Notes under the pieces: model-generated
Seen by the model: the letters and a program-made list of their open reading frames with translations, nothing else
Database searches by the model: none
What the model was told of the DNA's origin: nothing
NCBI RefSeq assembly: GCF_005047355.1
Contig: NZ_SUMC01000019.1
Span: 1-64,000, forward strand
From: Actinacidiphila oryziradicis
Lineage (GTDB): Bacteria; Actinomycetota; Actinomycetes; Streptomycetales; Streptomycetaceae
Direction of reading: 5' to 3'
Length of the DNA stretch: 64,000 bases
Translations under genes and position numbers: made by a program
Shown: piece by piece, positions 6,493 through 62,325 of the stretch
Position numbering within the stretch: the stretch's first letter is position 1
How the letters are laid out: each line of letters begins with the position of its first letter

Positions 6493-6568
6493 GTTGTGGT
6501 CAGACGTGGCGCAGGGCGATGGGGGCACCTCCCATGCCCTTAAGGCTATGGGGGAGGGTGAGCACAAC
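6493..6568 (+). repeat. Dispersed MITE-like element, copy A
   Basis: A 76-bp element that begins GTTGTGGTCA and ends GAGCACAAC, so its ends are imperfect inverted repeats. The core GGGGGCACCTCCC...GGGGGAGGGTG can fold back on itself. The same design recurs at 46247-46328, 51026-51117 (reverse orientation) and 62236-62325. Homology continues past the right end as CCACCGGCCCGCAC, also present in copy B. Confidence 0.75.
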
Positions 6569-6601
6569 GCCAACCACCGGCCCGCACATGAACGCCGGGG
6601 C

Positions 6602-6618
6602 CCGGGGCAGAGCCCCGG
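6602..6618. terminator. Short GC-rich hairpin between convergent genes
   Basis: CCGGGGC-AGA-GCCCCGG is a 7-bp perfect stem with a three-base loop. It lies between the convergent amidohydrolase and ctaA genes and could stop transcription from either side. There is no U tract, as usual in streptomycetes. Confidence 0.5.
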
Positions 6619-6650
6619 TTTCGGGAAGGACAGCGGCAGGCGCCGGCCCG

Positions 6651-7643
6651 CTACGCGGTCGGGGCGGGCTGCGGCGCCTGTAGTTCCGCCGGCGCGGGGA
6701 CGGGCGTATCGGCGTGGGGGCGCTCACGCAGGGACAGCAGCACCCGCACCACCGCGATCCAGATCAGCGCCGCGCCGAGCATGTGCAGCCCGACCAGCAG
6801 TTCGGGCAGGTGGGTGAAGTACTGGACGTAGCCGATCACGCCCTGGGACAGCAGCACCACCAGTAGATCGCGCACCCGGTGGCGCGGCCCGCCAGGGGCG
6901 TCCACCGCGCGCAGCATGAACCAGAGGGCGGTGGCCAGGCCGCAGACCACCCACGCGAGGTCGGCGTGGAGTTGGGCGATCGTCTTCCAGTCGATGGGCA
7001 CGCGCGGCACATCGCTGCGGTCACCCGCGTGCGGCCCGGCGCCGGTCACCAAAGTGCCGACGGCGATGAGGGCTCCGGTGGCCGCGGCCAGCACCCAGGT
7101 GAGCTGGACGACGGGCTTGCCGACAAGCGGGCGGGGCGCGCCGTCGCCCTCGCGGGAGCGCTGCCAGGTCAGCACCGCGAACGTGATCAGCAGGGGGGAG
7201 AGCATGAAGTGCGAGGCGACAACGTACGGATTCAGGTGGGTCAGCACCGCCGCCCCGCCGAGCACCGCGTTGCCCATGACCACCCAGAACTGCGCCCAGC
7301 CGAGCCGGGTCAGGCCGCGCCGCCAGGGCTTGGCCGAGCGGGCTGCGATGATGGCCCAGCCGACCGCCGCGCACAGCACATAGGTGAGCATGCGGTTGGT
7401 GAACTCGATCGCGCCGTGGATGCCCATCGCGCTGGTCGTGGTGAGGCTGTCGTTGGTGCAGGTGGGCCAGGTGGGACAGCCGAGGCCCGAGCTGGTCAGC
7501 CGCACCGCGCCGCCGGTGACCACGATGAGGACGCTCATCACGACCGCGGCCATGGCCGCCCGCCGGACCGTCCCGGGGGAGGGGGTCCAGTGCTGGGCGA
7601 TATAGGCGAGCGGGTTTCGCACGGCTTGGGTTGCGTTCGGCAC
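6651..7643 (-). CDS. ctaA: Haem A synthase (COX15/CtaA)
   Basis: Membrane enzyme that oxidises the C8 methyl of haem O to a formyl group, giving haem A for aa3-type cytochrome oxidase. The 330 residues hold about eight transmembrane segments, with the conserved VTGGAVRLTSSGLGCPTWP block near the N-terminus, haem-ligand histidines in MGIHGAIEFTNRM and LNPYVVASHFMLSP, and later ones in AQLHADLAWV and LLVGLHMLGA. The GTG at 7641-7643 (protein MPNATQAVRNPLAYI) is preferred over an in-frame start 66 bases upstream, because it matches the expected short N-terminus before the first membrane helix. The C-terminus is proline-rich. It acts after CtaB (2618-3568). Confidence 0.94.
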   Translation of the reverse strand: MPNATQAVRNPLAYIAQHWTPSPGTVRRAAMAAVVMSVLIVVTGGAVRLTSSGLGCPTWPTCTNDSLTTTSAMGIHGAIEFTNRMLTYVLCAAVGWAIIAARSAKPWRRGLTRLGWAQFWVVMGNAVLGGAAVLTHLNPYVVASHFMLSPLLITFAVLTWQRSREGDGAPRPLVGKPVVQLTWVLAAATGALIAVGTLVTGAGPHAGDRSDVPRVPIDWKTIAQLHADLAWVVCGLATALWFMLRAVDAPGGPRHRVRDLLVVLLSQGVIGYVQYFTHLPELLVGLHMLGAALIWIAVVRVLLSLRERPHADTPVPAPAELQAPQPAPTA

Positions 7644-7689
7644 CCGCTCATCGTAGGCGCCCCGCACCGTCGGACGGAGTGGGGGTGGG

Positions 7690-8120
7690 CCGTGGCGCCA
7701 GACAGGCACGCAGCTTCAGGCCGTCGGCATCTGCTCTACGCAGGCGCGGCCAAGGGTGACGGCACCACCGACGACAGCACGGCCTTCGCCGACGCATACG
7801 CGTACGCCGAGGGGCGCCTCCAGGACCACAGCGCCCGGACGGCGATCGACATCCCGCCGGGCAAGTTCCTGATCACCGAGCCCGGCGGGCCTGGCGCTTC
7901 AGGGGCTCGGGCCTGCGGAGCAGCGAGATCGTCTTCGCGCCGAAGACCGCTCAGGACGCCTTTCTCTGCCGAAGGGGCGACAGGTGCCGGAACATCGCCT
8001 TCGAGGGACTCCGCTTCACCTCCGGGCCCTGCTCGCCAGCCACGCCAGGGACGCCTTCCTCACCCTGGACAAGGGGCGGGACACGGGCCTCGCACGCTTC
8101 ACGGACTGCGTCACGCCGTC
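7690..8120 (+). pseudogene. Pectate-lyase-3/beta-helix protein remnant, frameshifted
   Basis: Three reading frames in succession encode pieces of a right-handed beta-helix protein. The first (to about 7885) carries AAKGDGTTDDSTAFADAYAY and IDIPPGKFLI, the signature of the pectate lyase 3/GH55-like N-terminus. The second, from 7892, reads WRFRGSGLRSSEIVFAPKT and IAFEGLRFTSG. The third, from about 8038, reads SHARDAFLTLDKGRDTGLAR. The C-terminal half is missing and the remnant ends against the ABC permease gene. Two frameshifts and the truncation show it is not functional. Intact homologues are polysaccharide lyases, hydrolases or phage tail spikes. Confidence 0.72.
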
Positions 8121-8139
8121 CTGAACGCGGGCGCGACGG

Positions 8140-8916
8140 CTACTCCCAGCGGAACCAGCGCGCCGCCGCCCCAAGCCCCAGCACGGCCCAGACCGCCAGG
8201 ATCCCGAGGTCGCCCCAAGGCATCCCCGCGCCGTGCTGGAGGACATCCCGCAGCCCGCCCGACAGCGCCGAGATCGGCAGCAGCCGCAGGCCGTCCTGCG
8301 CCGCGGCCGGGAACTTGTCCAGCGGCACCATGACCCCGCCGCCGACGAGCAGCAGCAGGAACACCAGGTTGGCGGCGGCCAGGGTCGCCTCGGCCTTGAG
8401 GGTCCCGGCCATCAGCAGCCCGAGTCCGGAGAACGCGGCGGTGCCGAGCACCAGCAACAGAAGGACGGACAGGGGGTTGCCGTGCGGCGACCAGCCCAGA
8501 GCGAAGGCGATCACTGTCAGCAGCATGATCTGCAGCACCTCGGTGACCAGCACCGATCCGGTCTTCGCGGTCATCAGCGCCCAGCGCGGCAACGGCGACG
8601 CTCCGAGCCGCTTGAGCACTCCGTACCGCCGCTCGAAGCCGGTGGCGATGGCCTGCCCGGTGAAGGCGGTGGACATCACCGCGAGCGCCAGGATGCCTGG
8701 GGCCAGGAAGTCGACGGCCTTGCCGGCACCGGTGTCGAGGATGGAGACGGCGCTGAAGAGCACCAGCAGCAGCGTCGGGATGACGACGGTGAGCAGTAGC
8801 TGCTCGCCGTTGCGCAGCAGCATCCGGGTCTCCAGCGCGGTCTGGGCGCCGATCATGCGGGAGAGCGGAGCCGCGCCGGAAGCGGGGGCGAATGTTCCAG
8901 TGGCGCTCGTACTCAT
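8140..8916 (-). CDS. ABC-2 type transporter permease
   Basis: A 258-residue membrane protein with six hydrophobic segments and the ABC-2 layout. A soluble N-terminus leads into QLLLTVVIPTLLLVLFSAV, then the FERRYGVLKRLGASPL cytoplasmic loop typical of DrrB/NatB-type exporters, and a C-terminal GLGLLMAGTLKAEATLAAAN region. The ATG overlaps the stop of the upstream ATPase by four bases (ATGA), so the two are coupled. It most likely exports a lipid, drug or peptide; in actinobacteria this pair often sits beside suf and ctaA, but the substrate is unknown. Confidence 0.88.
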   Translation of the reverse strand: MSTSATGTFAPASGAAPLSRMIGAQTALETRMLLRNGEQLLLTVVIPTLLLVLFSAVSILDTGAGKAVDFLAPGILALAVMSTAFTGQAIATGFERRYGVLKRLGASPLPRWALMTAKTGSVLVTEVLQIMLLTVIAFALGWSPHGNPLSVLLLLVLGTAAFSGLGLLMAGTLKAEATLAAANLVFLLLLVGGGVMVPLDKFPAAAQDGLRLLPISALSGGLRDVLQHGAGMPWGDLGILAVWAVLGLGAAARWFRWE

Positions 8917-9839
8917 GCGCGCAGCTCCTTGCCGGTCAGCTCAAGAAAGACGTCCTCCAGCGTGCGCCGCTCGACCGCGAGGCGGTCCGGCATGACGCCG
9001 TGCTGCGCGCACCAGGAGGTGACGGTGGCGAGCATCTGCGGATCGACCTTGCCCTCGATCCGGTAGCTGCCGGGCGTCAGCTCGGCGGCGGCGGAGTCGG
9101 CGGGAAGCGCCTTGAGGAGGGAGGCGAGATCGAGCCCCGGCCGCCCGTTGAAGCGCAGGGTGTTCTCGGCGCCGCCGCGGCACAGCTCCTCGGGGGTGCC
9201 GTGGGCTATGGGCCGGCCGTGGTCGATGATCACGACGTCGTCGGCGAGGTGTTCGGCCTCGTCCATGAAGTGCGTGGTCAGTACGGCTGTCACGCCGTCG
9301 GTCCGCAGCTCCCGTACGAGGTCCCAGGTGGCCCGGCGGGCCTGAGGGTCGAGCCCGGCGGTCGGCTCGTCGAGGAAGACCAGCTCGGGGCGGCCGACCA
9401 CCGCCATGGCCAGCGCCAGCCGCTGCTGCTGCCCGCCGGACAGCCGCCGGTAGGGGGTGCGGCCGCAGGAGTCGAGGCCGAGCCGTTCGATCAGCAGGTT
9501 CACGTCGACCGGGTGGGCGTGGAGTTTCGCGGTGTGCCGCAGCATCTCCTCGGCGCGGGCGCCGGGGTAGACACCGCCGGACTGGAGCATGACGCCGATC
9601 CGTGGCCGTAGAGCCGCCGCGTCGGTGATCGGATCGAGCCCCAGCACCCGTACGGTCCCGGCGTCCGGCCGCCGGTATCCCTCGCAGGTCTCGACGGTTG
9701 TGGTCTTCCCGGCGCCGTTGGGCCCGAGGACGGCGGTGACGGTGCCGCGGGCGACGGTCAGGTCGAGCCCGCTCACTGCCGTTTTGGCGCCGTACCGTTT
9801 GACCAGTCCGGCCACCTCGACCGCAGGCTCGATTCGCAT
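8913..9839 (-). CDS. ABC transporter ATP-binding protein (DrrA/CcmA type)
   Basis: A 308-residue ATPase with Walker A GPNGAGKTT (near residue 39), Q-loop in IGVMLQSGG, signature LSGGQQQRLALA, Walker B LVFLDEPTAGLD and H-loop in LTTHFMDEAEHL. A C-terminal extension of about 90 residues is typical of the DrrA family and may bind the permease. It pairs with the ABC-2 permease directly downstream. It is transcribed away from sufR; the gap between them holds the palindrome at 9910-9925. Confidence 0.92.
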   Translation of the reverse strand: MRIEPAVEVAGLVKRYGAKTAVSGLDLTVARGTVTAVLGPNGAGKTTTVETCEGYRRPDAGTVRVLGLDPITDAAALRPRIGVMLQSGGVYPGARAEEMLRHTAKLHAHPVDVNLLIERLGLDSCGRTPYRRLSGGQQQRLALAMAVVGRPELVFLDEPTAGLDPQARRATWDLVRELRTDGVTAVLTTHFMDEAEHLADDVVIIDHGRPIAHGTPEELCRGGAENTLRFNGRPGLDLASLLKALPADSAAAELTPGSYRIEGKVDPQMLATVTSWCAQHGVMPDRLAVERRTLEDVFLELTGKELRA

Positions 9840-9909
9840 ACCGGTGAGTCTAGGGAGCCGCGCCGGGGCACCGTACGGCCCCCCGGAAATGCGTCTGGGC
9901 GGCCCAGCC

Positions 9910-9925
9910 CTTAGGGGTGCCTAAG
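9910..9925. promoter_or_regulatory. Inverted repeat CTTAGG-GGTG-CCTAAG
   Basis: A perfect 6-bp inverted repeat with a four-base spacer lies between the divergent ABC ATPase gene and sufR. The TTAGG...CCTAA halves resemble those of actinobacterial DtxR/DmdR iron boxes (TTAGGTTAG-type), but the spacing is shorter than a canonical 19-bp box. Iron control next to suf would make sense. This is a candidate operator only. Confidence 0.45.
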
Positions 9926-9984
9926 TGACGCACCCCACCGTGGACCACGCGGACGCCGCTTGCAGGAGTCCGGTGAATTAAGCA

Positions 9985-9999
9985 ACACTGTCATTGTGG
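9985..9999 (+). promoter_or_regulatory. Candidate SufR operator over the sufR start codon
   Basis: ACACT-GTCAT-TGTGG matches the ACACT-N5-TGTGA site described for mycobacterial SufR with one mismatch. It covers the GTG start of sufR at 9996-9998, so a bound repressor would block transcript initiation or the start itself. No Shine-Dalgarno sequence precedes the GTG, which fits a leaderless or near-leaderless mRNA. The known motif is recalled from the family; binding here is inference. Confidence 0.6.
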
Positions 10000-10724
10000 A
10001 AATCACGGGAGAGGCTCAGGAGGAGCAGACGACCGGGGAGCGGAGCACCCGCAACCGGGTCGCCCGGTCCATCCTGGACCACGGCCCGTCCACCGCCGCC
10101 GATCTGGCCCAGCGGCTCGGTCTCACCCAGGCGGCCGTACGCCGCCATCTGGATGCCCTCGTCGCCGAGGACGTCGTCGAACCGCGCGAGCAGCGGGTCT
10201 ATGGCGCGCGCGGCCGCGGGCGTCCGGCCAAGGTCTTCGCGCTGACCGACTGCGGCCGGGACGCCTTCGACCAGGCCTATGACCAGCTGGCGGCCGACGC
10301 GCTCCGCTGGATCGCCCAGTCCGCGGGCGGTGGGGAGACCGGAGAGGCCGCGGTGTCGGCCTTCGCCCGGGCCCGCCTCGCCACTCAGACCGAGCGCTAC
10401 CGGGCCGCGATCGAGGCCGCCGAGCCGGAGGAGCGCACCCAGGCTCTCGCCAGGGCTCTGAGCAAGGACGGGTACGCTGCCACTACGCGCGGTGCGCCCG
10501 CCTCCGCCGGTGAGCAGCTCTGCCAGCACCACTGTCCGGTGGCGCATATCGCCGAGCAGTTCCCGCAGCTGTGCGAGGCGGAGGCCGAGGTCTTCTCCAG
10601 CCTGCTCGGCACCCATGTACAACGTCTGGCCACCATCGCCCATGGCGACGGGGTGTGCACGACTTTCATTCCGCAAGCTCATATCACCACATCCGCTAGC
10701 ACTTCCGGGAGGAACCCCGCATGA
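9996..10724 (+). CDS. sufR: SUF operon Fe-S transcriptional regulator
   Basis: DeoR/ArsR-like winged-helix repressor that senses an Fe-S cluster and controls suf genes. The HTH is at about residues 32-55 ([20 protein letters not shown]), followed by the wing [13 protein letters not shown]. Cysteines C176, C180, C193 and C221 lie in the C-terminal half; C180-x12-C193 matches the SufR cluster-binding spacing. The GTG at 9996 gives a 242-residue protein starting [10 protein letters not shown]. It is the first gene of the operon, and its stop overlaps the sufB ATG (ATGA at 10721). The C-terminal tail after the last cysteine is short and Ser/Thr-rich. Confidence 0.9.
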
Positions 10725-12142
10725 CTGCTCCCACGGAGACCACTCACCCGGAGCTCGACGGCCTGGGCACCTACGAGTTCGGCTGGGCCGACTCCGACGT
10801 GGCCGGTGCCGCTGCCAAGCGGGGCCTGTCCGAGGAGGTCGTCCGCGACATCTCGGGGAAGAAGTCCGAGCCCGAGTGGATGCTCAAGCTGCGGCTGAAG
10901 GGTCTGAAGCTCTTCGGGAAGAAGCCCATGCCCACCTGGGGCTCGGACCTTTCCGGCATCGACTTCGACAACATCAAGTACTTCGTCCGGTCGACGGAGA
11001 AGCAGGCGGAGTCCTGGGAGGACCTGCCCGAGGACATCAAGAACACCTACGACAAGCTGGGCATCCCGGAGGCCGAGAAGCAGCGCCTTGTCTCCGGTGT
11101 CGCCGCCCAGTACGAGTCGGAGGTCGTCTACCACCAGATCCGCGAGGACCTGGAGGAGCAGGGCGTCATCTTCCTGGACACCGACACCGCGCTCAAGACG
11201 CACCCGGAGCTCTTCCAGGAGTACTTCGGCACCGTGATCCCGGTCGGCGACAACAAGTTCGCCTCGCTGAACTCGGCCGTGTGGTCCGGCGGATCGTTCA
11301 TCTACGTCCCCAAGGGTGTCCACGTCGACATCCCGCTCCAGGCCTACTTCCGGATCAACACGGAGAACATGGGCCAGTTCGAGCGGACGCTGATCATCGT
11401 CGACGAGGACGCCTACGTCCACTACGTCGAGGGTTGTACGGCGCCGATCTACAAGTCGGACTCGCTGCACAGCGCCGTCGTGGAGATCATCGTCAAGAAG
11501 GGCGGCCGCTGCCGCTACACGACCATCCAGAACTGGTCGAACAACGTCTACAACCTGGTCACCAAGCGTGCCGTGGCCTACGAGGGCGCGACCATGGAGT
11601 GGGTCGACGGCAACATCGGCTCCAAGGTGACGATGAAGTACCCGGCCGTCTACCTGATGGGCGAGCACGCCAAGGGCGAGACGCTCTCCATCGCCTTCGC
11701 CGGCGAGGGCCAGCACCAGGACGCGGGCGCCAAGATGGTCCACATGGCGCCGAACACCTCGTCCAACATCGTCTCCAAGTCCGTGGCGCGTGGCGGCGGC
11801 CGCACCTCCTACCGCGGTCTGATCGAGATCGGCGAGGGCGCCGAGGGCTCCAAGTCCAACGTCCTGTGTGACGCCCTGCTGGTCGACACGATCTCCCGCT
11901 CGGACACGTACCCGTATGTGGACGTCCGTGAGGACGATGTGTCCATGGGCCACGAGGCGACCGTCTCCAAGGTGAGTGACGAGCAGCTCTTCTACCTGAT
12001 GAGCCGGGGTATGACCGAGTTCGAGGCCATGGCGATGATCGTGCGTGGCTTTGTCGAGCCGATCGCCAGGGAGCTCCCGATGGAGTACGCGCTGGAGCTC
12101 AACCGGCTGATCGAGCTGCAGATGGAAGGCGCGGTCGGCTAG
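10721..12142 (+). CDS. sufB: Fe-S cluster scaffold subunit SufB
   Basis: A 473-residue core scaffold protein of the SUF system; with SufC and SufD it forms the complex on which Fe-S clusters are built in the cytoplasm. Seen are [16 protein letters not shown], the [20 protein letters not shown] block, the beta-helix core with [12 protein letters not shown], and the C-terminal [20 protein letters not shown] region shared with SufD. The Shine-Dalgarno GGGAGGA precedes the ATG, which overlaps the sufR stop. Length and start are standard for actinobacteria. Confidence 0.97.
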
Positions 12143-12201
12143 CGCCCACCCCCCTTCCCCACCAGCGACGTCCATCCAGAGAGAGAGCTGTACGACAAGC
12201 C

Positions 12202-44404: not shown

Positions 44405-47400
44405 ATGCATGACGACCGCAAGCAGGTCGAGGGCCGCCTCGACCGCGTCCTTGAGCAGCGGATCCGCCCCGCCGTGTACGCCGCGTCCATCCCGCTCACC
44501 CTCACCGCCTGGCACGTCCCCGACGAGCCGGTCCCCGTCGCCGAAGCCCTGGCCGCCGACTACGCACCGTTCGCCGTCGGCGAGCGCTGGGGCAGGCCCT
44601 GGTCGACGACCTGGATCCGCGCCACAGGCACCGTGCCCGCCGCATGGGCCGGGAAGCGTGTCGAGGCCGTCTTCGACCTGGGCTTCGTCGGCGACTGGCC
44701 CGGCAACCAGGCCGAGGCCCTGGTCCACGACGCCGCCGGGCAACCCGTCAAGGGCATCGAGCCGCGCAATCAGTACGTCCCCGTCGCCAACCCCGCCGAC
44801 GGCGGCGAGCCGGTCGAGCTGCTCCTCGAAGCCGCCGCGAACCCCGACATCCTGGCCAACGGCTTCCTGCCGACCCCCTTCGGCGACAAGCTGACCGCGC
44901 CGCCCGAGCCGATCTACACGATGGGCCGCGCCGACCTCGCCGTACTCGACGAGAACGTCTGGCACCTCGTGCTCGACATCGAGGTCGCGGCCGAGCTGAT
45001 GCGAGAGCTCTCCGACGGCGACCCGCGCCGTCATGAACTGCTGCGCGCCCTGGAACAGATGCTTGATGCCCTCGACATCGCCGATGTCGCCGGCACCGCC
45101 GCCGCTGCCCGCGAGCAGCTCACCGACGTGCTCTCCCGGCCCGCCAACGCCAGCGCGCACACCCTCTCCTCGGTCGGCCACGCCCACATCGACAGCGCCT
45201 GGCTGTGGCCGCTGCGCGAGACCGTACGCAAGACCTCGCGCACCTTCTCCAACGTCACCGCGCTCGCCCAGGACTACCCCGACTTCGTCTTCGCCTGCTC
45301 CCAGGCGCAGCAGTACGCCTGGGCCAAGGAGCACTATCCCGAGGTCTACCAGCGGATGCAGGACGCCGCGAAGGCCGGCAACTGGGTCCCGGTCGGCGGC
45401 ATGTGGGTCGAGGCCGACGGCAATCTGCCCGGCGGCGAGGCGATGGCCCGCCAACTCGTCACAGGCAAGCGGTTCTTCGCGGAGGAGTTCGGTGTCGAGT
45501 GCGAGGGGGTGTGGCTGCCCGACTCCTTCGGCTACACCGGCGCGTATCCGCAGCTCGCACGGCTGGCCGGGATGCACTGGTTCCTCACCCAGAAGATCTC
45601 CTGGAACCAGACCAACAAGATGCCGCACCACACCTTCTGGTGGGAGGGCATCGACGGCAGCCGGGTCTTCACCCACTTCCCGCCCGTCGACACCTACAAC
45701 GCCATCTTCTCCGGTGAGGAGATGGCCCACGCCGTCCGCAACTACGCCGACAAGGGCGGCGGCACCCGCTCCCTGGTGCCCTTCGGCCACGGCGACGGCG
45801 GTGGCGGCCCCACCCGCGAGATGATGGAGAAGGCCCGCCGCCTGCGCGACCTCGAAGGCTCGCCCAAGGTCGTCGTCCAGGATCCCAACGCCTTCTTCCG
45901 CGACGCCCAGGCCGAGTACGAAGACGCCCCCGTCTGGTCCGGTGAGCTCTACCTGGAGCTTCACCGCGCGACCTACACCAGCCAGGCCCGCACCAAGTCC
46001 GGCAACCGGCGCAGCGAGCACCTGCTGCGCGAGGCCGAACTGTGGGCCGCGACGGCGGCGCTGCGGGCGGGCTCGGAGTACGCGTACCCGTACGAGGACC
46101 TGGACCGGCTGTGGAAGACGGTGCTGCTGCACCAGTTCCACGACATCCTGCCCGGCAGCTCGATCGCGTGGGTGCACCGCGAGGCAGAGGCGACGTACGC
46201 GCGGGTCCGCGAAGAGCTGGAAAAGCTGATCGCAGCGGCTACCAAGGTTGTGGGCAATCGTCCCGCAGGGCCGAGCGAAGCGAGATGGGGGCACCTCCCA
46301 GCGGTAGCTGGGGGAGGGTGGGCACAACCCGGCCACCGGCCCGCACCGTGGGTGTTCAACACCAGCCCCCGCGACCGCACCGAGGTGATAGCGGTCCCGT
46401 CAGACCTCGCCCCGGCCGAAGGCCAGCCGCTGTCCGACGGCACGACAGCCGTCTACACGACGGTGCCCGGCTCCGGCGCCGCCCCGCTCGCCGCAGAGGC
46501 GGCACCCGTCGCACCGGTCACCGCGGCGGACCGCACCCTGGCCAACGGCCTCGTCCGCGTCGAGTTCGACGACGACGGTCTCTTCGTCTCCGTACGCGAC
46601 CTGGTCGCCGACCGCGAGGTCCTGGCGCCGGGGGAGCGGGGCAACCTGCTGCGGCTGCACACCGACCTGCCCAACGAGTGGGACGCCTGGGACATCGACA
46701 AGCACTACAAGCGCCGGTACACCGACCTCACCGCTGTCGACTCGATCACGGTCGTGGAGAGCGGCCCGCTGGTCGGCGCCATCCGGGTCGAGCGCTCCTT
46801 CGGCTCGTCCAAGGTCGTGCAGACCGTGACACTGCGGGCCGGCAGCCCGCGCATCGACATCGACACCGAGCTCGACTGGCACGAGACCGAGAAGATCCTC
46901 AAGGCGGCCTTCCCGCTGGACGTCCACGCCGACCGCTCGGCGGCCGAGATCCAGTTCGGGCATGTGTTCCGGCCCACCCACACCAACACCAGCTGGGAGG
47001 CGGCCCGTTTCGAGGTCTTCTGCCACCGCTGGGTCCATGTCGCCGAGGCGGGCTACGGAGTCGCGGTCCTCAACGACTCGACCTACGGTCATGATGTCGG
47101 CCGCACCGCCCGGGAGGACGGCGGCACCACCACGACCCTGCGGCTCAGCCTGGTACGGGCACCCCGCGTCCCCGACCCGCACGCGGACCAGGGTGCGCAC
47201 CGGATGACGTACTCCCTGCTGCCCGGAGCCACGATCGCCGACGCGGTGGAAGGCGGCTACGCGCTCAACCTACCGCTGCGGGTCGAGCCGGGAGCCGCCG
47301 CGGAGGCGCCCGCGCCGCTGGTGGGTATCGAGGGTACGGCGGCCTCGATCGAGGCCGTCAAGCTGGCCGACGACCGGTCCGGGGATGTCATCGTACGAAT

Positions 47401-47580
47401 GTATGAATCCCTGGGCGGGCGGGCTCGCACCAGGGTGACCCCCGGCTTCCCGGTGGCGAACGCCCAGGTCGTCGACCTCCTGGAACGTCCGCTGGACGAG
47501 GACCCGATCGAGCCTGACGCCGACGGCGGCATCCCGGTGAGTCTGCGGCCCTTCCAGATCCTCACCCTGCGCCTCACACC

Positions 47581-47590
<10 letters not shown>
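44405..47590 (+). CDS. GH38 alpha-mannosidase with an in-frame repeat insertion
   Basis: A 1061-residue alpha-mannosidase. After an N-terminal beta domain of about 240 residues comes the catalytic barrel, with zinc-binding H259 and H261 and D263 (GHAHIDSAWLW) and the nucleophile D373 in WLPDSFGYTG. Middle-domain text is HQFHDILPGSSIAWVHREA, and beta domains follow. Residues about 615-648 (VVGNRPAGPSEARWGHLP onward) are encoded by copy B of the dispersed element, placed in the linker before the WVFNTSPRD strand, where homologues have only a short variable linker. The frame is preserved. AGGAG is about 12 bases before the ATG. The enzyme probably trims mannosides in the cytoplasm. Confidence 0.94.
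46247..46328 (+). repeat. Dispersed MITE-like element, copy B, inside the GH38 gene
   Basis: An 82-bp element from GTTGTGGGCA to TGGGCACAAC, imperfect terminal inverted repeats of 10 bp. The internal GGGGGCACCTCCC and GGGGGAGGGTG match copies A, C and D. Homology with copy A continues to about 46347 (CCACCGGCCCGCAC). It is translated in frame within the mannosidase. Confidence 0.85.
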
Positions 47591-50989
<3,399 letters not shown>

Positions 50990-51025
50990 CGCCTGTGGGG
51001 TGGGCATGTGCGGGGCGGGGGCTCC

Positions 51026-51117
51026 GTTGTGCCCACCCTCCCCCAGCTACCCCCCAGCCTTCGGCCGGGAGGTGCCCTCAGGAGTTCGCTCGGCCCTGCC
51101 GCACGCCTGCCCACAAC
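51026..51117 (-). repeat. Dispersed MITE-like element, copy C
   Basis: A 92-bp copy in reverse orientation between the GH2 and XRE-cupin genes, both of which end next to it. Terminal repeats are GTTGTGCCCA and TGCCCACAAC on the plus strand. The centre has the CCGAAGGCTGGGGGG segment also seen in copy D, read on the minus strand, plus a short local duplication. It may also act as a terminator between the convergent genes. Confidence 0.8.
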
Positions 51118-53357: not shown

Positions 53358-54263
53358 CCCTGCCACAGCTGCTGCTGCGCGACGCGCGTCTCCCCGACGG
53401 GGCGGTCCGTGACCTGCTGCTCGACGGCGTCGACGGCCTCGTCCGCCGGGTCGCCGCCCCCGGCCTGCTGCCCGCCGGGCCGGACGAAATCGACCTGTCC
53501 GGAAGTCGTCCCCTGCACGGCGGACGCCGAGCCCTTCACCGTACGGGGCGCCGACGCACTCCTGTACATCCACGCCTACGGCACCTCCGGCATCACCGCC
53601 ACCGCGACCGTGCGGCTGCAGCGGGCCCGCGACTGGACCGGGCTCTTCGCGGCCTTCGACGACTGGCGGCCGGCCACCGCCGCACTGTCCGATCTCGTAC
53701 GTCTCGAACCGGCACCGCGCCTCGCGTCCCTGGACGAGGCCGGGCTCGTCCGGGCCTTCCAGCCCGACCCGGCACTGGACCCGGCGGCTCTCAGCCTGCG
53801 CGCCATCGTCGAGGCCGGGGCGGCCGGGACCGCGCGGGCGATCATCTCCCGGCACGGCGGAAGAGTCCTGGAGGTCCGGCCCGCGCCGGAAGGCCCCGCG
53901 CTGGTCAGCTCGCTGTCCTTCAACCACCCCACGTACCACCTGATGAAGGCAGAGGACGGCTGGTTCCACCTGGAGATCGGCGGTGACGTGCTGCTCGGCG
54001 ACCCCGCGGAGATCAGGAAGGTCTTCCCCGGCACCCTGCTGCACCTGGAAGGGATGCGCTCCGGGACCGTCGGGATGCTGATGGCGCGATACGAGGACGA
54101 GCAGACCGTCTACGACGGCATCGCCGCCCTCGAAGTGCTGGGGGTCGGTGTGCACAGCCCGCACAACTGGTACGTGGACCGCCGGGTCGATCTCGTACGG
54201 AGCGCTGCGCGCGCCGCTGACCCACGGGGCTTGCTCAACCCCGGCAAGCTGCCGGCGCCGTAG
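53354..54263 (+). pseudogene. Deletion fusion of an amidohydrolase front and an FAD-oxidase tail
   Basis: From ATG 53354 to about 53500 the frame reads MTLPQLLLRDARLPDGAVRD and GPDEIDLSGS, the N-terminus of a cytosine-deaminase-like amidohydrolase just before its metal-binding HxH. At about 53501 the frame changes, and from 53502 to the TAG at 54263 it reads EVVPCTADAEPFTVRGADAL and DPRGLLNPGKLPAP, the C-terminal half of an FAD-linked (glycolate/lactate-type) oxidase including its final LNPGK motif. So most of the amidohydrolase and the FAD-binding front of the oxidase are missing. Neither protein can be functional. Confidence 0.8.
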
Positions 54264-55758: not shown

Positions 55759-55855
55759 TCCCGTGCCTCCAGCTCATGCGGTGCCCGCGAGGTGCGGGCC
55801 CGTCCAGCTTCGGCCGGGTATCTCGTCGCCGCAAACCGGGGCAAAATCTCAAGGG

Positions 55856-56872
55856 TCAGGATGACTCGCGCCGCACCAGCTCGGTCGGCAGAATGACCGC
55901 CGAGGGGTCGTCACCGGCGATACGGGCCAGCAGCAGGCGCACCATCTCAGTGCTGATCCGGTCGAACGGCTGCCGGATCGTGGTGAGCGGCGGCCGGGTG
56001 GCCAGTGCGGCCGGCGAGTCGTCGAAGCCGCCGACGGCGACATCGTGCGGGACGCTGCGCCCGGCGTGTTCCAGCGCGACCAGCGCGCCCTGCGCCATGA
56101 GGTCGGAGGCGACAAAGACCGCGTCGAGGTCGGGGGCGCGCCGTAGCAGGGCCGTCATCGCGGCCTCGCCGCCAGCCCGGCTGTAGTCGCTCTCGGCGAT
56201 CAGCGCCTCGTCGGCCGGGAGCCCGGCGGCGGCCAGCTCCTCTCGGTACCCGGCGAGCCGCTGGACGCCGCCCGGGGTGTCGAGAGGGCCCGTGATCGTC
56301 GCGATCCGGCGCCGTCCGCCGGCCGCGAGATGCCGGACCATCGCCCGGGCGCCGCCGCGCTCGTCGGCACCGACATAGGCGATCTGGCCGCCGAGCCCGA
56401 GCGGTTCACCGCAGGCGACGACCGGGATTTGGGCCTTGGCCAGCCGCTCGGCCATGGGGTTGCCGGAGTGGCTGGAGACCAGCAGCACGCCGTCGACATG
56501 GCCGCCGGTGATGTACCGCGTTATCCGGCGCCGCTCGGCCTCGTTACCGGCGATCATCAGCAGCAACGGGATGTCGTGCGCGGCCAGTGCCTGAGTGCAG
56601 CCGCGCAGCAGCACACTGAAGTTCGGGTCCTCGAAGAACCGCTCCTGCGGCTCGGTGAGCAGGAAGCCCACCGAGTCCGAACGCCCCGTGATCAGGCTGC
56701 GGGCGTGCCGGTTGACGACGTACCCCGTCCTGCGGATCGCCGCGTTGACCGCCGCCAGCGCCGTCGGACTGACGTTGTGCCCGCCGTTGAGCACCCGCGA
56801 CACCGTGCCGCGCGAGACCCCGGCCTCGCGTGCCACATCGTGGATGGTCGGCGGGCGACGTCGTTCCTTCAA
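55856..56872 (-). CDS. LacI-family regulator of the galactan locus
   Basis: A 338-residue LacI repressor. The HTH is TIHDVAREAGVSRGTVSRVL, with hinge YVVNRHARSL. The C-terminal sugar-binding domain contains VDGVLLVSSHSGNP and VGGFDDSPAALATRPPLTTI. The TTG start (56870-56872) is preceded by GGAAAGG. It lies immediately downstream of the transporter genes on the same strand. The CTGTGA-type operators at 60095-60130 are the expected targets, with galactose or a galacto-oligosaccharide as likely inducer. Functionally it corresponds to GanR of Bacillus, although that protein is also LacI-type only by analogy. Confidence 0.91.
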   Translation of the reverse strand: MKERRRPPTIHDVAREAGVSRGTVSRVLNGGHNVSPTALAAVNAAIRRTGYVVNRHARSLITGRSDSVGFLLTEPQERFFEDPNFSVLLRGCTQALAAHDIPLLLMIAGNEAERRRITRYITGGHVDGVLLVSSHSGNPMAERLAKAQIPVVACGEPLGLGGQIAYVGADERGGARAMVRHLAAGGRRRIATITGPLDTPGGVQRLAGYREELAAAGLPADEALIAESDYSRAGGEAAMTALLRRAPDLDAVFVASDLMAQGALVALEHAGRSVPHDVAVGGFDDSPAALATRPPLTTIRQPFDRISTEMVRLLLARIAGDDPSAVILPTELVRRESS

Positions 56873-56916
56873 AGCGGGCAGCCTTTCCGTGGGTGTGAGG
56901 CGGGGTGTGCGGCTGG

Positions 56917-57813
56917 TCAGGACTTTACGGCCCCGGACAGCAGATCCAGGCTCCAGAACCGCTGGACCACCAGGAACAGCGCGATCAGCGGGACGATCGC
57001 CAGCAGCGCCCCGGTGATCACCAGGGTGTAGAGGGCCGGGGCGGAGTTACCTTGCTGGAGCAGGGTGTAGAGGCCCAGTGTGACCGGGAACTTGTTGTCG
57101 TCGCCCAGCATGATGAACGGCAGCAGGAAGTTGTTCCAGACCGCCACGAACTGGAAGAGGAAGACCGTAACCAGTCCCGGCACCATGACCGGCAGCGCGA
57201 TCCGCTGGAAGATCCCCCACTCGCTCGCCCCGTCCATCCGGGCCGCCTCGATGACATCGTCCGGCACGGCGGCGGAGGCGTAGATCCGAGCGAGATAGAT
57301 GCCGTACGGGGACAGGACGCTCGGCAGCAGGACCGAGAGATAGCTGTCCGCGAGGTTGGCCTTCGCCATCAGCAGATACGTCGGGATGGCGAGGATGACC
57401 GGCGGCATGAGTACCCCGGTGAGCAGGACGTTGAAGATGGACTCGCGACCCGGGAAGCGGTACTTGGCCAGCGCGTAGCCGCTCACGGCGGAGACGGCGG
57501 TCGACAGCAGCGCGCCGAAGCCCGCGTAGAAGAGGGAGTTGAGCATCCACTTCCAGTAGACGCCGTCGCGGTACGCCGTCAGGTCGGCGATGTTCTGGGT
57601 GAAGCCGGTGCCGGGCAGGAAGGTGAAGGTGGAGAACAGCTCGCGGCTGCTCTTGGTGGAGGCGACCAGCACCCATGCCACCGGCAGCAGGCAGTACGCG
57701 GCGCCGAACAGCAGCACGATGGTCGGGACCAGCCCGGGCCGGCGGGAGCGCTGGGCGGCAGCCGGTGCGGGCGCCGTCGGTGCGTCGGGGCGGGCGATGG
57801 TGGCGGCGCTCAT
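56917..57813 (-). CDS. Galacto-oligosaccharide ABC permease (MalG/GanQ type)
   Basis: A 298-residue permease with six helices after a Pro/Ala-rich N-terminus. The EAA loop reads VIEAARMDGASEWGIFQRIA. The ATG overlaps the upstream permease stop by four bases. It completes a GanSPQ-like importer without an ATPase, so a shared MsiK-type ATPase is expected. The LacI gene follows 44 bases downstream. Confidence 0.92.
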   Translation of the reverse strand: MSAATIARPDAPTAPAPAAAQRSRRPGLVPTIVLLFGAAYCLLPVAWVLVASTKSSRELFSTFTFLPGTGFTQNIADLTAYRDGVYWKWMLNSLFYAGFGALLSTAVSAVSGYALAKYRFPGRESIFNVLLTGVLMPPVILAIPTYLLMAKANLADSYLSVLLPSVLSPYGIYLARIYASAAVPDDVIEAARMDGASEWGIFQRIALPVMVPGLVTVFLFQFVAVWNNFLLPFIMLGDDNKFPVTLGLYTLLQQGNSAPALYTLVITGALLAIVPLIALFLVVQRFWSLDLLSGAVKS

Positions 57814-58772
57814 CGGGATTCTCCCTGGCTCGTACGGGAGTTGGCCACCTTGAGGAAGGCGAAGGACAGGACCAGGGTCACGACGGCGATGACCACGCAG
57901 GTCGCGGCCGCCGAGTAGATGTCACCGCGTACGAAGGCGTCCTGGTAGACCTTCATCAGCGGGCTCCAGGTGGTGGAGATGGAGTTGGTCAGCGGCTTGA
58001 GGGTGGTCGGTTCGCTGAACACCTGCAAGGTCGCGATCATCGAGAAGAAGAAGGTAAGGACCAGCGCCGGCGCGAGGGTCGGGATCTTGATACGGAGCGC
58101 GATCTGCAGCTCCGAGCAGCCGTCGATCCGGGCCGCCTCGTAGATCTCGGCGGGCACCGCACGCAGCGATGTGTAGATCACGATCATGTTGAAGCCGGTG
58201 CCGCCCCAGACCGCGATATTGGCGAGCGCCCCGAACATGGCACCACCGGAGAGCAGGTCCGGGATCGGCAGGCCCAGCTTGCCCAGCACGAAGTCGAACG
58301 GGCTCACGGTGGGGAGGTACAGAAAGCCCCACAGCAGGGCGGCGACGACGCCCGGTACCGCGTACGGCAGGAAGATCGCGAGCCGGGAGAAGCCGCGCAG
58401 CCGGGTCCGGTTGGCGTCCAGCATCAGGGCGAAGAGGAGGGCGAGTCCCAGCATGGTGGGGATGACCAGGGCGCCGTATCCCACGATGCGTAGGGAGCCG
58501 TGGAGCAGTTCGGTGTCGCCGAGGACACCGCTGTAGTTGCTCAGGCCCGCCCACACCTGGTGGCGGGCGTTCTTGCCCAGGCCCAGGCCGCTGATCTTGA
58601 CCTTGTGCAGGCTGAGGAAGACCGCGTAGCCGATGGGCAGCGCGAAGAAGAGCAGGAACAGGACGGTCGCGGGGACCAGGAAGCCGTACGGCGCGAAACG
58701 CGGCCCCGCGGCGCGCTGACGGGACGCGCGCGCGGGGGTGGCCTTCTTGGTGGCCATGGCGGTGGAGGTCAT
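57810..58772 (-). CDS. Galacto-oligosaccharide ABC permease (MalF/GanP type)
   Basis: A 320-residue permease with six helices and the EAA loop IYEAARIDGCSELQIALRIK. The N-terminus is short, basic and Ala-rich. It starts two bases after the stop of the binding-protein gene, consistent with one operon. Confidence 0.92.
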   Translation of the reverse strand: MTSTAMATKKATPARASRQRAAGPRFAPYGFLVPATVLFLLFFALPIGYAVFLSLHKVKISGLGLGKNARHQVWAGLSNYSGVLGDTELLHGSLRIVGYGALVIPTMLGLALLFALMLDANRTRLRGFSRLAIFLPYAVPGVVAALLWGFLYLPTVSPFDFVLGKLGLPIPDLLSGGAMFGALANIAVWGGTGFNMIVIYTSLRAVPAEIYEAARIDGCSELQIALRIKIPTLAPALVLTFFFSMIATLQVFSEPTTLKPLTNSISTTWSPLMKVYQDAFVRGDIYSAAATCVVIAVVTLVLSFAFLKVANSRTSQGESR

Positions 58773-58774
58773 GA

Positions 58775-60070
58775 TCAGGAGACCTTGAAGCCCTGCTTCT
58801 TCATGTCGGCCACGGTTGTGGTCTGCATGGCGGTCAGCGCGGTGAGGAAGTCGGACTTCTTCTGGGCGGCGTTGCCGAAGGAGTCCTTGAAGGCGCTGTA
58901 CGCGACGTTGACGTTGGGGCCCCAGGCGGCGCCCGCGGTGGTCTTGGCGATCGCGGCGGCCTTGGTGTAGAAGTCCGGCTGGTTGGAGAAGAAGTCAGGG
59001 GCCTGGGCGAGCGCTCCGCCGGTCTGTGCCTCGGTGGCGGCCGGGTAGATGGCGCCGTTCTTCACCAGCGCGGCGACGGCCGTCGGATCGGTGTTGAGCC
59101 ACTTGGCGAACGTGACTGCGGCGTCCTTGTGTGTGGAGTCGTTGGAGACGCCTGTGGTGGAGCCGCCCCAGTTGCCGGTGATGTTGTCGCCCGCGTTCCA
59201 CTGGGGGAGCGGGGCCATGGCCCACTTGCCCTTGGTGTCCGGCGCCGCGGTGGCAAGGACACCGGGGGCCCAGATGGCGCTGACCCAGGCGATCTGGGTG
59301 CCGGTGTCGAGCGCCTTGTTCCAGGCCGGGGTGTACATCGGCTGGTTGTCGATGGCACCGCTCCTGACCAGGCCGCCCCAGAAGTCGGCGACCTTCTTGG
59401 AAGCCGCGTCATTGATGGCGACGTTCCACCTGTCACCGCTGGCGGTCCACCATTTGGCGCCGGCCTGCTGGGCCAGTCCCGCGAACAGCCCCGGGTCACC
59501 ACTGGAGAATGTGGTCAGCGACTTCGTGCTGTCCTTCTTCTTCAGGGCCTTGGCGGTCGCCGCGAACTCGTCCCAGGTGGTGGGGACGGACAGCTTATAC
59601 TTCTTGAACAGGTCCTGGCGGTAGTAGAACATCAGCGGCCCGGTGTCCTGCGGGATCGCGTACACCGCGTTCGAGCCGAGGGTGACCTGCTGCCACACGC
59701 CGTCCGCGAAGCTGCTCTTCGCGTCCCCGCCCTGCTTCGATATGTCGGCCAGGACGTCATTGCTGACCAGAGTGGGGAGCGCCTGGTACTCGACCTGAAC
59801 CAGGTCCGGTGACTTGTGGGCCTTCGCGGCGGTGATGATCTTGGTGACCAGGTCGTCGCCGGACGCCTGCTTCTTCACCGTCACCTGGATCTTCGGGTGC
59901 GACTTGTTCCAGATCGCCACGACCTTGTCGAGGCCGGGTGCCCAGGCCCAGTAGGTGAGGTTGACCGGGCCGGAATCGGCCTTGCCGCTGCTGCCGGACG
60001 AACTGCAGCCCGCGAGCAGTGCGGCTGCCATGACGGCTGCGGTGGACGCCGCGAAGGCGCGGTGGTTCAT
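58775..60070 (-). CDS. Galacto-oligosaccharide-binding lipoprotein (GanS type)
   Basis: A 431-residue solute-binding protein with a Sec signal (HRAFAASTAAVMAAALLAG) and lipobox LLAGC, followed by a Ser/Gly-rich linker. Mature-domain text is LTYWAWAPGLDKVVAIWNKS, FYYRQDLFKKYKLSVPTTWD and GKWAMAPLPQWNAGDN. The ATG follows a strong promoter with two operators (60095-60157). It stands divergent from a GH42 gene and upstream of GanPQ-like permeases, so binding of beta-1,4-galacto-oligosaccharides is the likely role. Confidence 0.92.
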   Translation of the reverse strand: MNHRAFAASTAAVMAAALLAGCSSSGSSGKADSGPVNLTYWAWAPGLDKVVAIWNKSHPKIQVTVKKQASGDDLVTKIITAAKAHKSPDLVQVEYQALPTLVSNDVLADISKQGGDAKSSFADGVWQQVTLGSNAVYAIPQDTGPLMFYYRQDLFKKYKLSVPTTWDEFAATAKALKKKDSTKSLTTFSSGDPGLFAGLAQQAGAKWWTASGDRWNVAINDAASKKVADFWGGLVRSGAIDNQPMYTPAWNKALDTGTQIAWVSAIWAPGVLATAAPDTKGKWAMAPLPQWNAGDNITGNWGGSTTGVSNDSTHKDAAVTFAKWLNTDPTAVAALVKNGAIYPAATEAQTGGALAQAPDFFSNQPDFYTKAAAIAKTTAGAAWGPNVNVAYSAFKDSFGNAAQKKSDFLTALTAMQTTTVADMKKQGFKVS

Positions 60071-60094
60071 GGGGTTCCTCCCCTGACGAGGACG

Positions 60095-60130
60095 CTGTGA
60101 TCGTTCACAGTCGCGCTGTGGCGTTCACAG
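60095..60130. promoter_or_regulatory. Two LacI-type operators, 21 bp apart
   Basis: CTGTGATCGTTCACAG (60095-60110) and CTGTGGCGTTCACAG (60116-60130) are CG-centred palindromic sites typical of LacI repressors. Their starts are 21 bp apart, two helical turns. The second overlaps the -10 of the leftward promoter; the first lies just downstream of its start point. Confidence 0.85.
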
Positions 60131-60157
60131 TAGAGAAACTTTCCGGACACTTGTCAA
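60129..60157 (-). promoter_or_regulatory. Promoter of the binding-protein operon
   Basis: On the minus strand TTGACA (60152-60157), 17-base spacer and TCTACT (60129-60134). This is a near-consensus housekeeping promoter whose -10 is covered by the second LacI site. Confidence 0.82.
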
Positions 60158-60180
60158 TGCTTGTTGCCATGCGGTTATCT
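60151..60180 (+). promoter_or_regulatory. Divergent promoter toward GH42
   Basis: TTGTCA (60151-60156), 18-base spacer and TTATCT (60175-60180). Its -35 lies on the same bases as the -35 of the leftward promoter, so RNA polymerase may not be able to occupy both at once. Confidence 0.55.
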
Positions 60181-60229
60181 AGGCCGAGCCGCCGAGTTGG
60201 CGGCTGTGCACGTTCCCAAAGGAGATCCG

Positions 60230-62233
60230 ATGTCACGTCTCGCTTACGGCGGTGACTACAACCCCGAGCAGTGGCCCGAGGAGGTCTGGCACGAGGATGT
60301 GGCCCTGATGCGCGAGGCCGGCGTCACCATGGTCAGCGTCGGCGTCTTCTCCTGGGCCCGGCTGGAAACGGCCCCTGGGGTCCACGACTTCGGCTGGCTC
60401 GACCGGCTCCTCGACCTGCTTCATGCAGGCGGCATCCGCGTGGCCCTCGCCACCCCCACCGTCGCGCCGCCCGCCTGGTTCTACGCCGCACACCCCGAGG
60501 CGTTGCCCGTCACCAAAGAGGGCGTACGGTACGGATTCGGCTCACGCGGCGCCATCTGCCACAGCTCCGCCGCCTACCGGCAGGCCGCCGCCGGGATCAC
60601 CGAGCAGCTCGCCCGGCGCTACGGGAAGCACCCCGCGGTAGCGCTCTGGCACGTGCACAACGAGTACGGCGTGCCGGTCAACGCCTGCTACTGCGAGGCC
60701 TCCGGCGAGGAATTCCGCAGCTGGCTGCGCGCCCGGTACCAGACCCTCGACGCCCTCAACACCGCCTGGGGCACCGCCTTCTGGGGCCAGCACTACGGCG
60801 ACTGGGCCCACATCGACGCTCCCCGTGTCACCCCGACCGTCGGCAACCCGGCACAGCAGCTGGACTACGCGCGCTTCACCGACGAGACCCTGCGCGGCAA
60901 TTTCATCGCCGAGCGGGACATCCTGCACCGCCTCGCCCCCGGCGTCCCGGTCACCACCAACTTCATGACCGCGCTCAGCCAGTGCGACTCCATGGACTAC
61001 TGGGCCTGGGGCCGCGAGGTGGACCTCGTCGCCCAGGACCACTACCTGATCACCGACGGCCGCCGCACCCACGTCAACCTCGCCATGGCCGCCGACCTCA
61101 CCCGCTCCGTCGCGGGCGGCGCCCCCTGGCTCGTACTGGAGCACTCCACCAGCGGCGTCAACTGGCAGCCCCGCAACCCCGCCAAACGCCCCGGCGAAAT
61201 GGCCCGCAACAGCCTCGGGCACGTGGCGCGCGGCTCCGAGGGCGCGATGTTCTTCCAATGGCGGCAGTCCAGGCAGGGCGCCGAGAAGTTCCACTCCGCG
61301 ATGCTTCCGCACGCCGGGACCGCCAACCGCGTCTGGCGCGAAGTGGTCGCCCTCGGCGCGGACATCGGCGCGCTCGCCGGCATCGCCGGCAGCCGGACCA
61401 TGGCCGACGCCGCGATGGTCTGGGACTGGCAGTCCTGGTGGGCGCAGAACCTGGAGTGGCGGCCCACCGAGGACCACGACGCCCGCGAGCGCGCCGACAG
61501 TTTCTACGAAACGCTCTACGACCGGCACCTCACCGTCGACTTCGCACACCCCGAAGCCGATCTCTCGGCCTACCCCCTGGTCGTCGTGCCCGCCCTCTAC
61601 CTCGCCACCGAGGCCGTCGGCCAGAACCTGCGCGCCTACGTCGAGGGCGGCGGCACCCTCGTCGTCTCGTACTTCTCCGGCATCGTCGACGAGCACGACA
61701 CCGTCCACCCCGGCGCCTACCCCGGCGCCCTGCGCGATGTCCTCGGCCTGACCGTCGAGGAGTGGTCGCCGCTGCTCCGGGGGGAACGAGTCCGCATCGA
61801 GGCGGCCGACGGCTCCGTGCTACCGGCCGACGTCTGGACGGAATTCGTCGTCCCGAACGTCCCGCGCGGCGCCGAGCCCGTCTGGACCTACGCCGACGGC
61901 CGCGCCGCCGCAGGCCCGGCCATCACCCGGCACCAGCTCGGCCGGGGCGCCGCCTGGTACATCTCCACCCGGCTCGCTCCCGAGGCCCTGGACACCGTAC
62001 TCGCCGCCGCTGCCGCCGACGCCGGGATCAGCCCGCGCGACGACCTCCCGCGCGATGTCGAGGTCGTGCGGCGCACCGGCGAGCACGGCTCGTACCTCTT
62101 TGCGATCAACCACACCGCCACGGAGGCCAAGGTGCCCCTTGGCGCCGCCGGCACCGAACTGCTCACCGGCGAGCGGGCCGCAGGCGTACTGGCGGTGCCG
62201 CCGGGCGCGGTGCGTGTAGTCCGCGCCGACTAG
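60230..62233 (+). CDS. GH42 beta-galactosidase
   Basis: A 667-residue GH42 enzyme (GanA type). The acid/base is E145 (HVHNEYG) and the nucleophile E304 (WLVLEHSTSGVNWQ). It begins SRLAYGGDYNPEQWPEEVWH, the family start, and ends with the trimer and C-terminal beta domains. It has no signal peptide, so it acts on imported galacto-oligosaccharides in the cytoplasm. ATG 60230 has AAAGGAG at about six bases. It is divergent from the transporter and followed by copy D of the repeat and a terminator. Confidence 0.95.
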   Translation: MSRLAYGGDYNPEQWPEEVWHEDVALMREAGVTMVSVGVFSWARLETAPGVHDFGWLDRLLDLLHAGGIRVALATPTVAPPAWFYAAHPEALPVTKEGVRYGFGSRGAICHSSAAYRQAAAGITEQLARRYGKHPAVALWHVHNEYGVPVNACYCEASGEEFRSWLRARYQTLDALNTAWGTAFWGQHYGDWAHIDAPRVTPTVGNPAQQLDYARFTDETLRGNFIAERDILHRLAPGVPVTTNFMTALSQCDSMDYWAWGREVDLVAQDHYLITDGRRTHVNLAMAADLTRSVAGGAPWLVLEHSTSGVNWQPRNPAKRPGEMARNSLGHVARGSEGAMFFQWRQSRQGAEKFHSAMLPHAGTANRVWREVVALGADIGALAGIAGSRTMADAAMVWDWQSWWAQNLEWRPTEDHDARERADSFYETLYDRHLTVDFAHPEADLSAYPLVVVPALYLATEAVGQNLRAYVEGGGTLVVSYFSGIVDEHDTVHPGAYPGALRDVLGLTVEEWSPLLRGERVRIEAADGSVLPADVWTEFVVPNVPRGAEPVWTYADGRAAAGPAITRHQLGRGAAWYISTRLAPEALDTVLAAAAADAGISPRDDLPRDVEVVRRTGEHGSYLFAINHTATEAKVPLGAAGTELLTGERAAGVLAVPPGAVRVVRAD

Positions 62234-62235
62234 GG

Positions 62236-62325
62236 GTTGTGGGCAGTCGTTCCGCAGGGCGGAGCGAAGCCAGATGGGGGCACCTCCTGGGGGCACCTCC
62301 CGGCCGAAGGCTGGGGGAGGGTCAG
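62236..62325 (+). repeat. Dispersed MITE-like element, copy D
   Basis: It starts GTTGTGGGCA three bases after the GH42 stop. The core GGGGGCACCTCC appears twice in tandem, then CCGAAGGCTGGGGGAGGG as in copy C. The right terminal repeat has degenerated (GGGTCAGGGG instead of TGGGCACAAC). Confidence 0.75.

Follow-up and report, generated by a model that had tools for sequence, protein, structure and literature searches.

A REP-like family of dispersed palindromes, probably built of one hairpin nested in another, in Actinacidiphila oryziradicis and other streptomycetes

Repetitive extragenic palindromic (REP) sequences have been described as short imperfect palindromes tagged with GTAG or CGTC, present in tens to thousands of copies and lying mainly between tandem or convergent genes, with some copies within genes, including genes of replication and repair (PMC3733652, the main text of which does not mention Streptomyces). 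Rickettsia palindromic elements (RPEs) are palindromic repeats translated in frame within proteins (PMC10969869, PMC3733652). Here we describe a dispersed repeat from the first 64,000 nt of contig NZ_SUMC01000019.1 of Actinacidiphila oryziradicis (GCF_005047355.1), the stretch hereafter called the window, in which an initial annotation had pointed out four copies of a short element with inverted ends. The best reading is that of a streptomycete REP/RPE-like family with hairpin-in-hairpin nesting. We consider it probable that this family of dispersed palindromes has two levels, a base palindrome (B) and a second hairpin (E) nested in B.

The REP-like character first proposed for the element was borne out: it is a short imperfect palindrome predicted to form one hairpin, with dozens of dispersed copies in both orientations, mostly 3' of genes, and it occurs in many related genomes. 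As in the REP sequences described in PMC3733652, copies lie between tandem or convergent genes and a few are intragenic. In contrast to them, the stem of B is longer and contains tandem G.G mismatches, the consensus lacks the GTAG/CGTC foot tag (its feet are GTTGTG/CACAAC or GCTGCG/CGCAGC), most hosts tested have no Y1 match and a second hairpin is nested at a fixed point. Because it has neither the tag nor a link to a REP-associated tyrosine transposase (RAYT), the repeat is not filed under the GTAG/CGTC or RAYT-linked families. It shares with RPEs the in-frame insertion that leaves the frame open (in GH38, CobB and SMC) and differs in being mostly intergenic (5 of 64 copies within open reading frames, ORFs) and in its nesting, a separation drawn from the papers' descriptions rather than from sequence. 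It resembles miniature inverted-repeat transposable elements (MITEs) in size range and inverted ends (PMC10969869), and appears to differ from them in that no related transposase was found (DDE models not run) and no clean target duplication was seen at two gained copies. Among the papers listed in searches of the open-access literature, which leaves out most subscription papers, in several cases the best 8–20 of a larger number, none names a Streptomyces repeat of this kind. Neither fixed-point hairpin nesting nor recurrence in CobB and SMC was met with among these papers or in passages of PMC4681348, PMC3733652, PMC10969869, PMC1590033 and PMC2267715.

All four copies of the window were present where first reported, as read from the sequence at each position. 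Both of the inverted ends described were found in copies 1–3, the right end GGGGGAGGGTGNGCACAAC being exact at those 3 places; copy 4 has the left end and core and lacks the right end. The right boundary had been drawn too short, as a tail, CCGRCCACCGGCCCGCAC, extends the element past CACAAC in nearly all of 21 aligned copies. The core is a hairpin as supposed, but an independent repeat (E) nested in B rather than part of a single unit. The features are as follows.

Copy 1, 6493–6587, plus strand: B left arm 6493–6517; nested E (ATGCC..GGC type) 6518–6555; B right arm 6556–6568; tail 6569–6587.
Copy 2, 46247–46346, plus strand, in frame in the GH38 gene: B left arm 46247–46271; E (AGCGGTAGCT type, with GAGCGAAGCGAGAT leader) 46272–46315; B right arm 46316–46328; tail 46329–46346.
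Copy 3, 51008–51117, minus strand: B left arm 51093–51117; degenerate E (GGCCGAAGG type) 51039–51092; B right arm 51026–51038; tail 51008–51025.
Copy 4, truncated, 62236–62318, plus strand: B left arm 62236–62260; E with doubled GGGGGCACCTCCY 62261–62318; no B right arm and no tail.
GH38 alpha-mannosidase ORF, 44405–47590, plus strand: 1061 amino acids, with copy 2 from residue 615.

Three copies lie close behind stop codons (2, 3 and 43 nt) and one inside a gene, in agreement with the initial annotation. Copy 1 starts 43 nt past the stop of an ORF ending at 6449, copy 4 begins 2 nt past the stop at 62233, and copy 3, the tail of which is diverged, is flanked by convergent ORFs ending at 50989 (plus strand) and 51121 (minus strand). 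Past GGGGGAGGGT, copy 4 departs from the repeat, and it is the weakest of the 47 covariance-model matches described below (E value 3.2e-7). A fourth place resembling GGGGGAGGGTGNGCACAAC, at 54140 with 3 mismatches, lies within none of the four copies. A search of the window against Rfam at the gathering threshold gave 0 matches to curated RNA families.

B is a 43–45 nt imperfect palindrome, with the plain form GTTGTG GG CA GG CGTTCCGC AGG GCGGAACG GG TG GG CACAAC, and is predicted to fold into one hairpin that contains tandem G.G mismatches. Across a covariation set of 24 distinct short forms, 97.7% of cells were paired, and 12 cells were changed on both sides compared with 2.0 in shuffles. 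None of 500 shuffles reached any of five covariation measures, and slid controls gave 0–3 such cells. Pair 16–30 of the apical stem is T-A in 16 of the 24 forms; six have G-C there, and C-G and T-G occur once each. Pair 2–44 of the foot is T-A in 19, C-G in two and G-C in one. For the commonest form, the minimum-energy fold is this structure both as RNA (z -4.1) and as DNA (z -5.5). The clade of genomes G155 and G205 has the feet GCTGCG/CGCAGC in an architecture otherwise as in B. An outer stem, GTTGTGGGC/GCCCGCAC, was considered for the long form and rejected in favour of the base palindrome: paired changes were found in 2 of 26 predicted pairs, neither of them in that stem. At one locus (L213 510–553, G000:C24:169110-169152) the palindrome arms are fully Watson–Crick, without G.G mismatches, and look like the outcome of quasi-palindrome correction.

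E is a 30–44 nt hairpin (TGGGGG...CCCC...TGGGGGA) nested in the apical arm of B, usually in place of GGAAC. Among the matches listed outside the window genome, the right junction GGGTGGGC was found in 28 of 33 E-nested copies. In the window genome (G000) E is commoner than B, with 201 copies of the pattern CACCTCCCGGCCGAAGGCTGGGGGA (up to 3 mismatches) against 0 in the control, and comprises at least three sequence types. The hairpin was present in 50 of 71 left-arm rows of this genome, 8 of these without the right end (a few rows repeat a copy). Five truncated copies (L207, L212, L216, L222 and L224) break directly past CCGCAGG, in the loop. A third repeat, CTCAAACGCCGGACGGGCTGGAT (repeat A), abuts about half of the G000 copies upstream, at a distance of 10–13 nt past its GGGCTG (for example L004 1417). 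The spacers between repeat A and B fall into a few types that recur among copies, which suggests co-amplified composites. The element first described is B with E nested in it and a conserved tail, plus repeat A in about half of the copies, and B and E are two nested repeats with separate histories.

Mosaics of the type known as bacterial interspersed mosaic elements (BIMEs) carry several palindromic modules in a fixed order. Here too the order is fixed, with repeat A first, then B and the tail, often followed by one more GC-rich repeat; unlike in BIMEs, the modules are nested in each other and not merely side by side.

The search of the whole genome and of related streptomycetes proposed in the initial annotation showed that the repeat is genome-wide and not limited to the four copies. 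The assembly of the window genome comprises 11.5 Mb in 389 contigs, in which the core pattern was found in 21 copies (0 in the reversed control) and the left end, allowing for as many as 3 mismatches, in 82 (7 in the control). A covariance model built from the 21 copies gave 132 matches at an E value of 10 or less out of 150 candidates scored. Of these, 47 were below 1e-6, 21 of the 47 being the training set; the next best match was at 2.5e-5, and 85 weaker matches up to an E value of 10 were set aside. Among 249 Streptomycetaceae genomes, the B model matched 67, in 4 of 17 genera, with 25 candidates scored per genome, so that per-genome copy counts are lower bounds. The exact left-end pattern was found in at least 100 stretches of named genomes; those listed fall in 35 differently titled Streptomyces organisms, with a single Actinacidiphila and a single Streptosporangium-titled record. 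The 101 matches listed comprised 53 plain palindromes of 43–45 nt, 33 with a nested hairpin, 11 of other kinds and 4 running off a contig end; such left-arm searches chiefly recover copies with an intact left arm.

Pairs of genomes that are 92–95% identical contain the same B copy with and without E. The genomes G205 and G155 share gene order and are 93% identical, and two 800-kb stretches of them hold five B sites each (in G205 as eight rows, three from one tandem cluster and one site matched twice; one G155 site is degenerate). The two B sites common to both are plain in G205, whereas in G155 one holds one nested hairpin and the other holds two, the hairpins lying at the foot (GCAGC replaced, twice) and the apical loop (TCAGC replaced). 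A fourth E difference was found in an open frame in G205, where CCCGC is replaced by 38 nt, an in-frame change of 33. Three of the four differences found were within B, which makes up an estimated 0.1% or so of the sequence; these come from the best 70 of 263 indels of at least 20 nt by folding energy per base, and other E-type differences may be missed. Orthologous copies L060/L068 and L077/L124 are plain versus nested, with GGAAC replaced by 30 or 36 nt, and further E-type differences separate L081 from L135 and L083 from L102. In most cases the replaced stretch has C as its last letter and G directly after it. Since the same B copy is seen with and without E in close genomes, E is exchanged between copies or moving, and B is its favoured site. 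The differences are probably gains rather than losses, because plain B keeps an intact complementary arm. At L081 1521, compared with L135, the E hairpin lies within another GC-rich palindromic sequence (GGGGCGCGGGGAACTGCGCGA).

Whole B copies also differ between these genomes, with one-sided copies at G155 143292 and G205 733295 (joined coordinates). The comparison of orthologous loci that had been suggested as a check for target-site duplications gave no clean duplication at either of these two gains, the spacers of which are turned over, and the mannosidase orthologues were too diverged to read (68–80% identity over aligned stretches).

It is possible, if somewhat doubtful, that E is exchanged among B copies through short-homology gene conversion and does not insert itself. 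In its favour are the recurrence of the same junctions in 28 of the 33 nested copies, the 25 and 13+ nt of homology offered by the B arms and the occurrence of plain and nested states together in one genome; against it, E was found at non-B sites with an E-free orthologue, namely the G205 coding site, the L081 repeat and the L102 site. More tentatively still, E may be a mobile hairpin moving without any Y1 transposase in the genome. It would find its target in the foot or stem of other palindromes, where a C on the left precedes 5 nt that close with C and are followed by G, and would take the place of roughly those 5 nt. If so, E would represent a novel type of miniature element directed at palindromes, docking preferentially in B, and the proteins CobB and SMC would have been rewritten by it.

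Copies within proteins were a minority; in the window genome in-frame internal copies were found in GH38, CobB and SMC. Copy 2 occupies the linker of the GH38 alpha-mannosidase, the middle domain of which ends at residue 614 and the C-terminal domain of which starts at residue 712, and orthologues without its insert were found. The orthologous linker holds other inserts in L156 (G010) and L153 (G048), the G010 piece resembling repeat A.

For CobB, copies lie in the linker that joins the CbiA domain to the GATase domain. At seven named loci with B in this linker, six copies are sense and one (L053) antisense; the window genome itself has an antisense copy, in a CobB gene located 19.5 kb past the window on that contig. 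The frame remains open (L145 reaches the contig end within the linker), and across seven species no fewer than four states of the site were seen, namely plain B (L090) and three or more E types. A search of 61 genomes gave matches in 59, and the 30 best-scoring loci were read, a choice that disfavours long inserts. Among these 30, two had a clear B and a third had one that looked degenerate by eye; these three loci come from one genus. A further locus had a weak antisense match and another had repeat A; the search patterns found no element in the other 25. Six genomes matching in two pieces fell outside the 30; the window genome belongs to these six, and its locus was read separately as L214. 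AlphaFold models of CobB (6 sequences) were set aside as too poor, with a mean predicted local distance difference test score of 49.6; insert residues 250–284 were below 50, as were many other stretches.

The SMC copy splits the Pfam hinge domain match into two stretches. Of 35 genomes, 33 matched; 12 loci of the genus were read, 2 of them unresolved, and 6 of the 10 resolved loci hold the element or a decayed remnant at the same hinge loop while 4 do not. The carriers are G000 and G048, which differ in E type, together with G004, G045, G043 and G017, the last three matching the reverse pattern only and judged from the peptide. SMC at its hinge and CobB at its linker are two conserved proteins that contain repeat-derived peptides in several species.

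Gene context was classified for 64 copies with a crude GC-frame gene caller (68 rows, 4 of them duplicates of a copy already present; L035, L045 and L225 lay outside the classing). Convergent regions held 22 copies, tandem regions 29 and divergent regions 2; 5 were within ORFs and 6 unresolved. This excess of convergent over divergent placement (p 3.6e-5) and the proximity of a gene 3' end, within 50 nt for 27 and within 100 nt for 37 of the 53 intergenic copies with both neighbours called, are consistent with the suggestion of a widely copied terminator in the initial annotation. Under this explanation, a transcription terminator or stabilising hairpin of the 3' untranslated region (UTR), copies would be kept for stopping or protecting transcripts and not for moving. 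Retention at some orthologous sites agrees with it, as does the lack of any significant strand bias between tandem genes (20 rows in the same orientation and 12 in the opposite one, p 0.22). However, it leaves the in-frame copies in GH38, CobB and SMC unexplained, presence or absence differs between close genomes, and the window copies have no T-run behind the hairpin by eye (no terminator scan was run). A terminator or stabiliser is in our view an improbable account of the family as a whole. Two further ORFs carry the repeat as a C-terminal extension (L040, G000:C346, and L194, C101:92726). By eye, these extended ORFs resemble kynurenine 3-monooxygenase (Kmo) and CobD.

That the copies are REP sequences moved by a host-encoded RAYT (a Y1 tyrosine transposase) appears very unlikely. 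The repeat would fit in its size and copy number, its imperfect stem and its position 3' of genes, and the window genome has four Y1_Tnp matches, but in the DNA examined around them the element flanks none of these matches (two lie 146 bases from a contig end, with one side short); only single arm-like matches with 3 mismatches were found there. Y1_Tnp was not found at an E value of 0.001 or less in 15 of 20 element-rich genomes, including the pair G205 and G155 that differs in B and E, and the 16 matches (L326–L341) in the other five have nothing but isolated arm-like matches nearby and lack the element itself. Together with the missing foot tag, this led us to reject a RAYT-linked REP; the explanation is largely refuted for the present genomes, leaving room for an ancestral RAYT that has been lost. 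The MITE suggested in the initial annotation is the least credible explanation. On this reading the copies would descend from a DDE insertion sequence as non-autonomous forms, with GTTGTGGGCA...TGGGCACAAC as their terminal repeats and a duplicated target. For all the imperfect inverted ends and both orientations of the copies these ends are the feet of one covarying hairpin, the two whole-B gains lack a clean target duplication, and left-end matches read 130–140 bases onward lead into the repeat, a truncated form or unrelated sequence, with no search for DDE transposases run.

Several observations weigh against a two-level family. The covariation set was partly gathered by the left-arm pattern, and kinship among sequences inflates such scores. 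The folds of the long E-nested copies do not clearly exceed shuffles in stability (nine folded, z -0.3 to -2.0), which leaves a structural role of the composite no more than putative. E always replaces GGAAC at one point, which gene conversion between B copies could also yield. No mobilising enzyme was found in searches for Y1_Tnp (DDE families were not searched). The family is also patchy: 182 of the 249 genomes gave no base-palindrome match (E value of 0.001 or less, strict filters), and the long model matched 7 of 41 genomes, its own included, at 0.01 or less, strongly only in its own and G010. Within the window, GGGGGCACCTCCC (2 mismatches) occurs 12 times against a shuffle mean of 8.6 and GTTGTGGGCA (1 mismatch) 7 times against 3.0, both weak excesses; the strength of the signal lies in the combination of short pieces and not in single ones.

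For a two-level family, we propose that in certain lineages of Streptomyces B spread to dozens of places in each genome and was then long retained at orthologous sites, mostly just behind genes and sometimes as in-frame protein linkers. At the second level E, the separate and more abundant hairpin, would insert by replacing about 5 nt, with the apical arm (GGGC|GGAAC|GGG) and foot (GGGC|GCAGC|GG) of B as favoured targets. Both may act as hairpins in single-stranded DNA during replication or in RNA, and might move by some trans-acting enzyme or by hairpin-driven template switching. At gene ends they probably add 3'-UTR hairpins that serve as termination or decay barriers, and intragenic copies would be tolerated because they are in frame within flexible linkers. 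An antibiotic-producing genus would thereby gain a defined REP-like family and a measurable rule for the landing of one repeat in another, and the long-standing question of how short palindromes spread in genomes without a RAYT becomes testable. For annotation, such copies are a warning, as they can produce C-terminal extensions and odd linkers.

Longer arrangements were also observed. A tandem second left half-element stands 24–51 bp before a full copy at L024 and L043 (G000) and at L109 (Streptomyces sp. R302). At L052, L062, L094 and L122 (R302, NK15101 and S. tanashiensis), another long palindrome of the GCGCCTGGACCCGCACC...GGTGCGGGTCCAGGCGC kind comes after B, forming a longer composite.

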